Assembly: GCA_003551435.1 (NCBI GenBank) | Contig: PUMQ01000019.1 | Location: forward strand, 1 to 44,435 | From: Candidatus Nealsoniibacteriota bacterium | GTDB taxonomy: Bacteria > Patescibacteriota > Minisyncoccia > Minisyncoccales > PWPS01 | Length of the DNA: 44,435 nt | Direction: 5' to 3' | Shown: piece by piece, positions 7,763 through 11,007 of the stretch | Position numbering within the stretch: position 1 is the stretch's first letter | Layout: each line of letters begins with the position of its first letter | The notes under the pieces: model-generated | What the model saw: only the letters and a program-made list of their open reading frames with translations | The model's database searches: none | Told to the model about the DNA's origin: nothing | Position numbers and translations under genes: made by a program

Positions 7763-8704
7763 TCATCCCCCAATCACTTCCACCTCTTCTTCTATATCAA
7801 TGCCAAACTTTTCTTTTATCCGTTTTTTCACGAGAGAAGAAAGCCTTTCCACATCTTTTTTGGTTGCTTCTCCGGAATTAACCAAAAAAACAGCGTGTTT
7901 TTCGGATATTTCCGCTCCTCCTATTTTTTCCCCTTTCAGGCCGCACTTTTCAATAAGGAAAGCAGCCGGAACAAATCCAAGTTCCCGAAATTTTTCCGCT
8001 TCCGGATAATTGGCGTAAAACTCCTCTCCCACTTCGGGATTTTTAAAAAAACTTCCGGCAGACGGGAGACTGGGATGTCTTTTTTTCCGGTAATCAAGGT
8101 ACTCCTGAAACTTCCCGTCTTCTTTGTTTTTTTTGGGAAACTCCATCTTTGCGCTCAAAATGATATGCTTCCCCTCTTTTTTAAAAATACTGTTTCTGTA
8201 TCCAAAGAGGCACTCTTCTTTTGAAAAAGTTTTTTCTTCCAACGTTTCCGTATCAAGGGCCTTTACCTCTTTTAGATAGTCCGATGTCGAGCTGTCAAAC
8301 GCTCCTGCATTTCCTCTTACCGCTCCCCCGACTGTTCCCGGCACTCCTCCCGCCCACTCCATTCCTTTTCCTTTCTTCTCGGTCACTTTTCGAGCTACTT
8401 CGGGAAGATAAGCCCCTGCCAAAGAGTACAAGACCACCTTACCGTCTTCTTCTGTTACTTTAAACGTGTCTATCGCCATTAAAATAATCATTCCGCTGTA
8501 AACCGGGGGCAGAATAATATTACTCCCTCTTCCGATAACAAGAAAGGGAAGTTTTTTATCACGTGCGTACGCCACTCCATTTGCCACTTCTTTCTCGCTT
8601 TCCGCTTTTAAGAAATAACGGGCGACGGACTCCAAGCGCATGGTGTTGTGCGCCTTGAGGGAAAAATCACGCTTTATTTTTTCCAAAAAATCTTTACTGT
8701 TCAT
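7763..8704 (-). CDS. murB: UDP-N-acetylenolpyruvoylglucosamine reductase MurB
   Basis: A 313-aa FAD enzyme that reduces UDP-GlcNAc-enolpyruvate to UDP-MurNAc, the second committed step of peptidoglycan synthesis. FAD-binding motifs are seen (VIGRGSNIILPP, GGVPGTVGGAVRGNAGAF). The catalytic Ser is in PSAGSFFKNP and the catalytic Glu in HAVFLVNSGEATKKDV. The YRNSIFKKEG pattern and lack of the tyrosine loop place it with type II MurB. The start MNSKDFLEKIKRDF sits directly behind a strong leader hairpin, without a Shine-Dalgarno site. It implies that the cell makes its own wall, consistent with the PGBD proteins in this window. Confidence 0.95.
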   Translation of the reverse strand: MNSKDFLEKIKRDFSLKAHNTMRLESVARYFLKAESEKEVANGVAYARDKKLPFLVIGRGSNIILPPVYSGMIILMAIDTFKVTEEDGKVVLYSLAGAYLPEVARKVTEKKGKGMEWAGGVPGTVGGAVRGNAGAFDSSTSDYLKEVKALDTETLEEKTFSKEECLFGYRNSIFKKEGKHIILSAKMEFPKKNKEDGKFQEYLDYRKKRHPSLPSAGSFFKNPEVGEEFYANYPEAEKFRELGFVPAAFLIEKCGLKGEKIGGAEISEKHAVFLVNSGEATKKDVERLSSLVKKRIKEKFGIDIEEEVEVIGG

Positions 8705-8758
8705 ATAAAAGGGCCGGAAGCGTTAACTCCAATTCTGTGAGTACTTGCCTTCCGACCC
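8705..8758 (-). promoter_or_regulatory. murB leader hairpin, attenuator-like
   Basis: On the minus strand, GGGTCGGAAG (8749-8758) pairs with CTTCCGGCCC (8711-8720), ten base pairs including one U-G, around a 28-nt loop. The stem is followed by TTTTATATG, where ATG is the murB start, so it resembles an intrinsic terminator ending at the start codon. The loop contains CAAGTACTCAC and GAATTGGAG; both are exact complements of blocks in the candidate RNA at 10877-10973. Confidence 0.6.
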
Positions 8759-8764
8759 GCTCTT

Positions 8765-8793
8765 ATTCTAAACAAAGGGAAGCAGGGTGTCAA
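8765..8793 (-). promoter_or_regulatory. Promoter of murB
   Basis: Minus-strand TTGACA (8788-8793), 17-bp spacer, TAGAAT (8765-8770). The start site would be near 8758, so the leader begins with the hairpin. Confidence 0.65.
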
Positions 8794-8926
8794 CCCCGTA
8801 TATCAACATTTAGGCATTTGCAATACGAAACCGGAATGGCTAGTTTTTTGGTATTTCTTTCTCGTGCTTCTTTCTTTTAAGAGCCAATACGAAGTATTCT
8901 AAATGTTGTATTACGGGGTCAACCCC
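8785..8926. repeat. 28-bp imperfect inverted repeat upstream of murB
   Basis: The left arm 8785-8813 and the right arm 8899-8926 share CTAAATGTTG(T/A)AT(T/A)ACGGGGT in opposite orientation. The 85-bp interior holds CCGGAATGGCTAGTTTTTTG, nearly repeated just outside the right arm at 8937-8955 (CCGGAATGCTTGTTTTTTG). A related copy lies at 10877-10903. This gap of 327 bp otherwise contains only the murB and 9032 promoters. Confidence 0.6.
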
Positions 8927-8964
8927 GCTGGTAATCCGGAATGCTTGTTTTTTGCCAATCCCGA

Positions 8965-8973
8965 TGTTATACT
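8965..8973 (+). promoter_or_regulatory. Extended -10 promoter for the 9032 gene
   Basis: TGT followed by TATACT (8968-8973) makes an extended -10; a weak TTGTTT lies 17 bp upstream. The leader to the ATG at 9032 would be about 52 nt. Confidence 0.35.
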
Positions 8974-9031
8974 CGGATTTGCTACCAATAAGGTCAATTC
9001 TTTAAAACTGCAAAAAGTTTAACATAAAACT

Positions 9032-9637
9032 ATGGAAAAAAAATCACTGCAAGAAATCGCCGATGAACTTAAAAAATTCAAGGGAAAGGTAAGAGGAGAA
9101 GCCTTTCGTACAAGAGCAAACTTTATCCGGCAGAAAGAAGGGGAAGAAGGAATAAAAAGGCTGGAAAATAAAATGGCACAATTGGGCGCACCGGTTAAGT
9201 TTGATGAAATAAAACCCACCGAGTGGGTAAACGAGGGTGTTAACTCCCTTTGTGTTCCGGTCGCCAAAGAGATATTCAACTGGACCGAAGAAGACGTTTT
9301 TGAGTTAGGAAAGTTTGCTTTTAAAACTTCTTTTCTCACAAGAAGCGTTCTGCGTTATCTTGTCTCTTTAAAGACGGCCTTAAAAATAATTCCAAAATAC
9401 TGGTCAAGCTATTACGACTTCGGGTCGCTTCAGGCCGGTGAATTTAACGAAAAGGAAAAATACGGAACGATAATAAAAAAAGGGTATAAAACTCATCCTC
9501 TTTTATGTATCCAGCACAGAGGATACTTTTTTGCCGCAGCAAACCTTATCTTAGGAGAAAAAAACGTTACCGTTGAAGAAATAAAGTGCGTGTACAAGGG
9601 GGATCCCTACGACGAGTATATTATAAGGTGGAAATAA
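9032..9637 (+). CDS. Unknown ~200-aa paralog family, copy 1
   Basis: A 201-aa soluble protein without signal peptide. It is clearly paralogous to the genes at 20380-20988 and 24111-24719: shared are SL(Q/K)E(I/T)A near the N-terminus, the central block F(N)W(T/S)(E/D)ED(V/I)F, Y..(Y/H)Y(D/N)FG, and the C-terminal (E)(I/T)KC.(Y/F)KGDPY.EY.I.W. The family has a conserved C-terminal Cys followed by GDPY, a layout that recalls V4R/heme-NO-binding-like sensor folds, but I do not recognise it and give no function. Unlike the other two copies it stands alone on the plus strand, between murB and the DapA-like gene, and shares a bidirectional terminator with the latter. Confidence 0.85.
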   Translation: MEKKSLQEIADELKKFKGKVRGEAFRTRANFIRQKEGEEGIKRLENKMAQLGAPVKFDEIKPTEWVNEGVNSLCVPVAKEIFNWTEEDVFELGKFAFKTSFLTRSVLRYLVSLKTALKIIPKYWSSYYDFGSLQAGEFNEKEKYGTIIKKGYKTHPLLCIQHRGYFFAAANLILGEKNVTVEEIKCVYKGDPYDEYIIRWK

Positions 9638-9644
9638 AAATTCA

Positions 9645-9678
9645 AAGAAAAACTGCGCTTAAAGCGCAGTCTTTGTAT
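9645..9678. terminator. Bidirectional terminator between convergent genes
   Basis: Palindrome ACTGCGCTT/AAGCGCAGT (9652-9670) flanked by A-rich sequence on the left and CTTTGTATTTTT on the right. It overlaps the stop codon of the minus-strand DapA-like gene. Confidence 0.7.
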
Positions 9679-10636
9679 TTTTGCCGACAAACTCTTTCCA
9701 AGCGTTGTCATCCCTTATTTTCTTTTCTACATCCACCTTGTAGAAATTTTCCACAGGTTCAAATAACCACCCTGCTTCCTCTCTTTTCATGATTTTTAAA
9801 AGCGCTTCTCTTATTTTCCATATCTCCGATTTTTCCACGAAAGTTGAAGGGGCGGGCATTCCCAGAACACTCATTATAATTTGGATATCCCTTCTTGCAG
9901 AGCCGGGTTGTAAAATCTTTAAAAGTGGTTCCAGTGTTTCCCTTATTTTTACTGTTTCGGAGGTGTCTTTTTCTGTGGCTTGGCTTATTGCGTTTTGCAT
10001 CACTCCGGGGAAAATATTTCCCAAAAGAGAAAAAACTCCTTTCTTTTTCTGGGGACCGGAAATCTGAAAAACATCCCTGTCGTTTCCCAAAAAAACGGTA
10101 AAATCCGGGCGGCATAATTTTTCTATCTCAATCGCCTCCCGAGCTTTGGAAATCACCCCGCAGATATTGGGAATCCTCCACTCAAGTGCTTTCAGCTCCC
10201 CGGGAGACAGAGGAGATCCGTTTTCTCTCTCGGAATTACAGATAATAACTTTCAGCAAAGGTGCGCTTCTCGCAATTTCTTCATAATACCTGTAGGTATT
10301 ACGGTAAATAACTCTCTTTAAAGATAACCTTTCGTACAAAGCAACGCCATCACACCCCGCCTTCTGCAACCTTTGTGCCTTTTCCGACGCATCTCTTGAT
10401 GATAGAAAGCTTACCCCGGCTACAACGGAAGTTTCCCTTCCCGCGTACCCAGAACACTCTTCTATCGCCAGCTTTTCCTTTTCAAACTCCCTTCCTCTAC
10501 TGCTTTTAATAAGCACTCCCTGCACTTTTCCTTGTAATAACCAAAAGTAAAGATTTTTGCGGAGTCCTTCTTGGTCAATCTGTCCGTCTTTTTTAGTTGG
10601 AATCACGGCATCTACATAGCATCCGGGTTCCCACAT
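9659..10636 (-). CDS. Divergent DapA-like (DHDPS/NAL superfamily) protein
   Basis: A 325-aa TIM-barrel protein whose overall pattern (PTKKDGQIDQEGLRKNLYF, VVAGVSF, AGCDGVALYERL, IPNICGVISKA, FTVFLGND) follows dihydrodipicolinate synthase/N-acetylneuraminate lyase. Key residues are altered. The usual GTTGE motif is replaced by KSSRGRE (about 44-50). The YN tyrosine position reads ICN (132-134). The Schiff-base Lys, normally in GIK, can only be matched by K164 in GVISKA, two residues out of register. It is therefore probably not a standard DapA; the substrate is unknown. It has a strong AAAGGAGG Shine-Dalgarno 7 nt before the ATG, unlike most neighbours, and is preceded by terminators, so its promoter is not obvious. 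Confidence 0.75.
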   Translation of the reverse strand: MWEPGCYVDAVIPTKKDGQIDQEGLRKNLYFWLLQGKVQGVLIKSSRGREFEKEKLAIEECSGYAGRETSVVAGVSFLSSRDASEKAQRLQKAGCDGVALYERLSLKRVIYRNTYRYYEEIARSAPLLKVIICNSERENGSPLSPGELKALEWRIPNICGVISKAREAIEIEKLCRPDFTVFLGNDRDVFQISGPQKKKGVFSLLGNIFPGVMQNAISQATEKDTSETVKIRETLEPLLKILQPGSARRDIQIIMSVLGMPAPSTFVEKSEIWKIREALLKIMKREEAGWLFEPVENFYKVDVEKKIRDDNAWKEFVGKNTKTAL

Positions 10637-10716
10637 TTTTTGGCCTCCTTTCTTTTAATTATGTTAAAGAGCCTGCGGCAAAAACACTTTTCTTCCCCCA
10701 AGAAAAAGAGCTTGGA

Positions 10717-10745
10717 ATAAAAAAATCTCTTTGGGGAAAGAGATT
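10717..10745 (-). terminator. Terminator after the 20-codon ORF
   Basis: Perfect 9-bp stem AATCTCTTT/AAAGAGATT (10724-10732, 10737-10745) with a 4-nt loop; on the minus strand it runs into TTTTTTTATT. It lies 25 nt past the small ORF and 80 bp before the DapA-like start. Confidence 0.7.
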
Positions 10746-10769
10746 GTGCGTTTTACTATGAATACGAAA

Positions 10770-10832
10770 CTAACCTCTTCCCCGCAAGAGACCTTTTTTC
10801 TCTTTCTTGGTCTTTTGGTTAGTAAGACTCAT
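10770..10832 (-). CDS. Candidate 20-aa basic microprotein
   Basis: ATG at 10832 to TAG at 10770, too short for usual gene calling. The product is 20 residues, with Lys/Arg at 8 positions and the ends MSLTNQKTKK and GLLRGRG. It has its own consensus promoter 9 nt upstream and an intrinsic terminator about 25 nt downstream, so it is a self-contained unit. The start codon lies in a TACTATGA/TCATAGTA inverted repeat (10754-10761, 10829-10836) and CTAACC/GGTTAG pairs inside it, so it could equally be a structured small RNA with a chance ORF. The composition recalls tiny basic ribosomal proteins (bTHX type), but there is no clear match. Confidence 0.4.
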   Translation of the reverse strand: MSLTNQKTKKEKKGLLRGRG

Positions 10833-10841
10833 AGTAGCTTT

Positions 10842-10869
10842 ATGGTAATAAAAATTTATTTTTTGTCAA
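10842..10869 (-). promoter_or_regulatory. Promoter of the 20-codon ORF
   Basis: Minus-strand TTGACA (10864-10869), 16-bp spacer, TACCAT (10842-10847), then 9 nt to the ATG. It starts directly after the terminator of the upstream small RNA. Confidence 0.5.
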
Positions 10870-10870
10870 A

Positions 10871-10892
10871 TAAAAAACGGGTTTGATCCCGT
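10871..10892 (-). terminator. Second terminator of the small RNA unit
   Basis: Minus-strand ACGGG/CCCGT stem (10877-10881, 10888-10892) with a 6-nt loop, running into TTTTTTATTTG. Confidence 0.55.
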
Positions 10893-10973
10893 AAACATTT
10901 GGCAGTGAAAGCAAAAAACCTCGCTCGAGTGAGGTTTTCTGCCGAATTGGAGCAACGGTTCCAAGTACTCACT
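10877..10973 (-). ncRNA. Candidate small structured RNA with terminators
   Basis: A consensus promoter (10980-11007) is followed by a short transcript with a stem TTGGA/TCCAA, then an intrinsic terminator hairpin (AAAACCTCACTCGAGCGAGG plus TTTTTT, 10913-10939), and a second terminator at 10871-10892. GGCAGTGA (10969-10976) can also pair with TCACTGCC (10901-10908) beyond the first terminator. The 5' part carries GTGAGTACTTG and CTCCAATTC, the complements of two blocks in the murB leader loop. A 38-codon GTG-initiated frame begins at 10972, exactly 7 nt after the -10, so a leaderless peptide or leader is an alternative reading. Confidence 0.5.
10913..10939 (-). terminator. Intrinsic terminator in the small RNA unit
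   Basis: Near-perfect stem AAAACCTCRCTCGAGYGAGG followed on the minus strand by TTTTTTG. It may also stop read-through from the flippase operon ending at 11035. Confidence 0.75.
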
Positions 10974-10979
10974 GCCCCT

Positions 10980-11007
10980 ATGATAGCAGAAAATAATTTT
11001 TTGTCAA
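10980..11007 (-). promoter_or_regulatory. Promoter of the small RNA unit
   Basis: Minus-strand TTGACA (11002-11007), 16-bp spacer, TATCAT (10980-10985); start site near 10973. It is 28 bp past the stop codon of the flippase gene. Confidence 0.6.

Follow-up and report, generated by a model that had tools for sequence, protein, structure and literature searches.

Antisense control RNAs such as those of the CopA/CopT, RNAI/RNAII, and pT181 systems engage their targets through kissing loops, and both partners are read from the same stretch of DNA, one from each strand. Synthetic small transcription activating RNAs (STARs) operate by invading the 5′ strand of the stem of a terminator-like hairpin. 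Two small RNAs (sRNAs) of Campylobacter jejuni, CjNC140 and CjNC110, bind each other in a bacterium that lacks Hfq (PMC10470494), and Listeria Rli51 is described as a leader-derived, trans-acting RNA from the mpl 5′ untranslated region (PMC11394854). The subject here is a candidate RNA pair in a 44,435-nucleotide stretch of DNA, hereafter called the window, from a Candidatus Nealsoniibacteriota bacterium (assembly GCA_003551435.1, contig PUMQ01000019.1, positions 1-44,435; GTDB lineage Bacteria; Patescibacteriota; Minisyncoccia; Minisyncoccales; PWPS01). RNA1 is a predicted sRNA at 10974-10908 on the minus strand, and RNA2 is a hairpin that precedes murB at 8758-8707 on the same strand. The literature searched yielded neither an account of this pair, which is also absent from Rfam, nor a small-RNA system described for Parcubacteria or Patescibacteria.

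The two RNAs share two blocks of perfect complementarity. Block B1 of RNA1 (GTGAGTACTTG, 10962-10972, minus strand) is an exact 11-nt complement of loop block B1′ of RNA2 (CAAGTACTCAC, 8737-8747, minus strand), and CTCCAATTC (10944-10952, minus strand) is an exact 9-nt complement of the loop at 8727-8735. The latter match is part of a longer contact in which RNA1 blocks B3 and B2 (GTTGCTCCAATTC, 10944-10956, minus strand) pair with blocks B2′-B3′ of the RNA2 loop (GAATTGGAGTTAAC, 8722-8735, minus strand). The putative helices are named H1 (B1:B1′) and H2 (B2/B3:B2′/B3′). When the other 74-nt stretches of the window were examined on both strands, none of 29,340 carried an 11-nt loop complement or two blocks of at least 8 nt, and the best single block among them was 9 nt. 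An earlier note on this DNA, which had pointed out the 11-nt and 9-nt matches and judged them unlikely to arise by chance, was accurate at both sites. It was also correct that the blocks occur in the same 5′-3′ order in both RNAs, which makes a single continuous duplex impossible and implies that the helices would lie side by side on the RNA2 stem.

Comparative evidence argues strongly that this pairing is maintained by selection. A MurB search of 60 relatives recovered loci in which both elements stand side by side directly upstream of murB and the blocks have changed in concert. In one such locus (L012), GAGTGCGTG is matched by CACGCACTC and CTCCAATC by GATTGGAG; in a locus from another family (L022), GTGAGTG is matched by CACTCAC and CTAAGTC by GACTTAG. 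The earlier note had named independent change of the two blocks in homologous loci as evidence that would overturn its proposal, and no such change occurred in the relatives tested. For 104 pairs, duplex energies for cognate versus swapped partners were -13.9 versus -11.6 kcal/mol for H1 and -15.9 versus -10.8 kcal/mol for H2 (0/5000 shuffles in each case), counts that are not to be read as probabilities because of kinship within families. Swaps confined to families, which guard against the coarsest effect of this kinship, gave z values of -7.0 (H1) and -8.5 (H2), again with 0/5000 each.

A score of intermolecular covariation, computed from fixed blocks that had been positioned in 81 genomes blind to the partner RNA, was 0.207 versus 0.116 after shuffling (0/500) and 0.056-0.065 when the register was slid. 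Many rows were misplaced by the register used for B2′, which was set from RNA2 alone, and this lowered the percentage of H2 positions found paired (71%). Outside the order, the test was restricted to 12 pairs of the class whose RNA1 had been picked by homology, with candidates picked by complementarity left out of the count, and H2 again gave 0/5000. Covariation extends to a third block, where RNA1 has CCC in 7/16 cases when RNA2 carries GGGG and in 1/87 when it carries GGAG. Furthermore, departures from Watson-Crick pairing are G-U rather than A-C by 56:13 in H1 and 30:3 in B2, which argues that pairing acts at the level of RNA and not of DNA repeats. The proposal that the sRNA pairs in trans with the loop of the murB leader through two contacts is therefore well supported by sequence comparison, since both blocks covary across the order, and selection on this pairing is close to certain.

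Each RNA appears to have its own promoter. The predicted promoter of RNA1 (10980-11007, minus strand) is a strong sigma-70-like match with TTGACA, a 16-nt spacer, TATCAT, and a TG ahead of the -10 element, and 95 aligned upstream regions yield a TTGACA and TGcTAtAAT logo. The RNA1 gene (10908-10974, minus strand) scores 78.5 bits with covariance model R2. Its 5′ end, where transcription is predicted to start, is formed by B1; then come a small hairpin, seen in most genomes (-4.22 versus -0.76 kcal/mol for shuffled linkers), B3, B2, and a terminator. Alignment and folding place this intrinsic terminator at 10911-10942 (minus strand), with a 12-bp stem, a conserved ACUCGAGC loop, and a run of U residues. 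The transcript would be about 65 nt long. The earlier note had drawn it from 10973 to 10877; the element and its promoter were upheld, but the transcript need not reach 10877, since the terminator stem occupies 10942-10911. The terminator loop holds the palindrome CUCGAG, which is widely kept within the order but not class-wide, and through which RNA1 could form dimers by a kissing contact.

RNA2 is preceded by a similarly strong sigma-70-like match for the RNA2/murB transcript (8765-8793, minus strand), composed of TTGACA, a 17-nt spacer, and TAGAAT, and in aligned upstream regions TTG and TANAAT stand directly ahead of GGG. The hairpin (8707-8758, minus strand; 79.7 bits with covariance model R1) has a 10-bp GC-rich stem and a 28-nt loop, and all ten stem pairs covary, each with two-sided changes. 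After the promoter, the 5′ to 3′ layout is stem, B1′, a short linker, B2′, B3′, and stem, with GCACUCAC and GGAGU as conserved parts. Just upstream of the promoter is an imperfect inverted repeat (8786-8926; 28-nt arms, 79% complementary, 85 nt between them), one arm of which overlaps the -35 element; among the fetched loci it occurs in this genome only. The murB gene (7763-8704, minus strand; Pfam MurB_C and FAD_binding_4) lies directly 3′ of RNA2 in the window and, by synteny, in most of the order.

Genome searches relied on covariance models R1 and later R3 for RNA2 and R2 for RNA1, with order-level cut-offs of E<=0.01 for RNA2 and E<=0.001 for RNA1; these E-values rest on a shortened calibration. 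Among 246 genomes of the order, RNA2 was detected in 107 and RNA1 in 111, mostly as single copies. Both were present in 83 and neither in 111 (Fisher p 5e-20), and local rescans raised the number of genomes with both to approximately 109. Contig breaks in metagenome-assembled genomes can conceal partner RNAs. Across the class, R3 detected RNA2 in 108 of 384 genomes, and all eight matches in a phylum sample of 287 genomes fall inside this class, with no match in any sampled genome of another class. Named records with the element are mostly Candidatus Nealsonbacteria, Parcubacteria, and Paceibacterota. The RNA2 pattern also matches records labelled Nanopelagicus and Lachnoclostridium (L136 and L151), which are probably misbinned Patescibacteria contigs. 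Two genomes carry extra copies: G134 has two RNA2 copies (L077:2320-2378 and L077:4060-4118) near one RNA1, and G061 has two RNA1-RNA2 pairs (L055 and L082), one of them convergent. The RNA2 pattern was not found in IMG/VR, and a phage origin was rejected on this basis.

The arrangement of the two genes bears directly on how the RNAs could meet. In the window, they stand at a distance of 2.2 kb, on either side of a DHDPS-family gene, and a 201-amino-acid open reading frame without a Pfam match (9032-9637, plus strand) sits between RNA2 and that gene, in the segment that separates the two RNAs. In genomes with both RNAs they are usually side by side, within an order-level conserved block that reads peptidoglycan-binding-domain protein, RNA1, RNA2, murB, hpf, secA. 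In genome G046, the two share a contig but are separated by 50 kb, and in four others (G082, G048, G102, and G199) the RNAs are on separate contigs; complementarity is kept in all five. A distance of up to 50 kb implies action in trans, and the possibility of one read-through transcript that folds on itself was rejected for the same reason.

The relation of RNA2 to murB is looser than its usual position would suggest. Most genomes of the order have RNA2 immediately ahead of murB, often at a distance of 3-20 nt from its start codon. Eight genomes instead carry it on the other strand from murB, where it has a promoter with a -10 element of its own and usually a run of U residues, and pairing with RNA1 is kept. 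A run of at least four U follows 88% of inverted RNA2 copies, 60% of co-oriented copies far from murB, and 34% of copies near murB. In other orders of the class, the gene that follows RNA2 may instead be hpf or a peptidoglycan-binding peptidase gene, and some copies have no gene close behind them. Since pairing persists when RNA2 is inverted, precedes other genes, or stands alone, the contact between RNA1 and RNA2 outlives any neighboring gene. These observations do not agree with a cis-attenuator, defined as a hairpin with a U-run upstream of murB in the same orientation, and the data on orientation and U-runs rule out a general terminator or attenuator switch for murB. The earlier note had taken the hairpin for a likely terminator that ends at the murB start codon and had suggested that pairing could control peptidoglycan synthesis. 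The hairpin does precede murB, but its stem stops 6 nt short of the ATG (8704), with no more than four U after it, and the view that the pair serves essentially to control murB through termination is not supported, given the inverted copies, the other or absent neighbors elsewhere, and the scarcity of U-runs near murB.

The proposed explanation is a pair of short RNAs, RNA1 and RNA2, that are expressed from separate promoters and bind each other in trans. RNA2 would form a GC-rich hairpin whose long loop offers two target blocks next to each other. The first block would pair over ~7-11 bp with the very 5′ end of RNA1 (H1), and the second over ~9-15 bp with the region just ahead of the RNA1 terminator (H2). 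The two helices might then lie side by side on the closed RNA2 stem, much as in a double kissing contact, and close a junction whose fourth arm is the small hairpin of RNA1. Conservation of the contact by selection across a class of Patescibacteria suggests that the complex is the functional unit. RNA1 would be the small RNA and RNA2 its dedicated hairpin partner in a regulatory pair. RNA2 might serve as a 5′ leader next to murB or related genes, and where it has its own terminator it might be a free RNA that acts as decoy or partner. The whole reading, a trans-encoded two-RNA pair with a two-helix contact on a hairpin loop and a probably regulatory role, is assigned a probability of roughly 0.6. 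Its functional component, regulation or decoy activity, is held more tentatively, at a little under an even chance.

Several observations weigh against this explanation. Among the 12 class-level pairs, H1 alone was not significant (722/5000), and the tabulated pair of genome G124 matches poorly and may involve a false partner. Copies of RNA2 near murB that have no U-run must be part of the murB mRNA, an arrangement that fits cis-regulation equally well. A sponge role is weakened by the number of one-mismatch B1 sites in the bacterium's own genome, which was 7 versus 5 for a reversed control, and Hfq was not detected in 30 relatives. Transcription itself is predicted from promoter and terminator signals.

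Some alternatives are quickly reduced by the evidence above. Chance complementarity or a shared repeat might be entertained for blocks this short, but no other window segment matches equally well and the covariation spans ~100 genomes, so this explanation has almost nothing left to recommend it. The near-palindromic core of B1 (AGTACT in the window) and the position of both copies just downstream of a promoter might suggest that the blocks are DNA or RNA sites of a protein, in opposite orientation, which coevolve with the protein and not with each other. This seems highly improbable, since an excess of G-U over A-C departures is unexpected for DNA sites, B2 and B3 vary between genomes yet remain complementary within each, and block spacing differs between RNA1 and RNA2.

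Two other rivals accept the contact and differ in what it is for. If RNA1 were a trans regulator of the murB operon, it would bind the leader hairpin and alter termination, translation, or stability. The location of RNA2 just ahead of murB in most of the order fits this idea, as does a cofold for the window in which pairing by RNA1 could continue into the 3′ strand of the RNA2 stem; this extension was set aside, since it was not seen in relatives inspected by eye. The inverted or murB-independent copies that keep their pairing and the low frequency of U-runs near murB, which speaks against a general terminator switch, leave murB regulation an unlikely account. Alternatively, the two transcripts could be an obligate heterodimer, a split non-coding RNA within one structured, nonregulatory ribonucleoprotein. 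Such a role would suit a pair that is conserved class-wide, usually single-copy, and independent of its neighbors, and in which almost the entire RNA2 loop is paired, the two RNA2 motifs are conserved, and no other RNA1 target is apparent. It is a rival to be taken seriously, though less likely than a regulatory pair: a partner protein was not identified, ~45% of the sampled genomes of the order have no detectable copy of either RNA, and B2 drifts freely (40 different heptamers). A related notion, that a functional molecule arises only from both RNAs together and has a role unlike known sRNA target control, is likewise regarded as a minority possibility. Overall, the sequence data favor a trans-encoded, probably regulatory pair, in which two RNAs would form a complex not described before, over a switch dedicated to a single cell-wall gene.

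Known RNA classes were also considered. In Rfam 15, neither element matches any family at the gathering score, and permissive scans gave sub-threshold hits to unrelated families; membership in a known family was therefore rejected. Identity with transfer-messenger RNA or RNase P RNA was dismissed because the relatives, among them the window's genome, carry both at other loci. Two Rfam bacterial models for signal recognition particle (SRP) RNA and the search for 6S RNA gave no match in 15 relatives, including the window's genome, while control genomes were detected. Neither element is an SRP or 6S RNA by these models, which a strongly diverged form could escape, and the SRP RNA of this order may have diverged strongly. 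A type I toxin-antitoxin system was excluded because inverted RNA2 copies have a U-run right after the hairpin and no room for an open reading frame, and because the potential reading frame of RNA1 is broken in relatives (for example, by ATGAGTGCGTGA in L012). The idea that RNA1 reaches several targets in its own genome through B1 was set aside given the lack of an excess of sites. A cis-encoded antisense pair of the CopA/CopT type is incompatible with separate loci, whether at the distance seen in the window or at that in G046.

Another stretch of note (10713-10869, minus strand) has a further promoter (TTGACA, TACCAT), a predicted structured region of ~100 nt, and a terminator hairpin (AATCTCTTTCCCCAAAGAGATTTTTTT). 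It is possibly a third small RNA, and it has no BLAST match among the fetched loci of other genomes.

Patescibacteria have extremely reduced genomes, and a trans-acting RNA pair in this group is of interest for that reason. Compensatory mutation in ~100 sampled genomes provides direct sequence evidence for a selected trans RNA-RNA contact, which is normally hard to obtain. With partners of only ~65 and 55 nt, the pair is a compact test case for structure and function, and the covariance models can widen annotation of the group.

There are clear parallels and departures when the pair is set beside described systems. Like CopA/CopT, RNAI/RNAII, and pT181, a short RNA would contact a leader hairpin by its loop, but complementarity is automatic in those systems, whereas RNA1 and RNA2 are trans-encoded and kept complementary by compensatory change. 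As with STARs, a trans RNA would bind a terminator-like hairpin upstream of a gene, although the target of RNA1 is the loop, and where murB follows, the RNA2 hairpin is in most cases not a terminator. Selected pairing between trans-encoded RNAs is one mark of an sRNA-sRNA sponge pair, and the covariation, the partner swaps, and the 50-kb separation in G046 support it for RNA1 and RNA2. The pair also resembles CjNC140/CjNC110, in which two small RNAs base-pair without Hfq and mutual control is possible (PMC10470494); the present pair differs in that one loop would be contacted by two helices in the same order, covariation is class-wide, the genes are usually adjacent, and RNA2 can double as an mRNA leader. 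Similarly, RNA2 resembles Rli51 in being a 5′-leader element that may also act in trans (PMC11394854), but it differs from Rli51 by having a dedicated, coevolving RNA partner and by the freedom with which it can be detached from, or inverted relative to, any gene.

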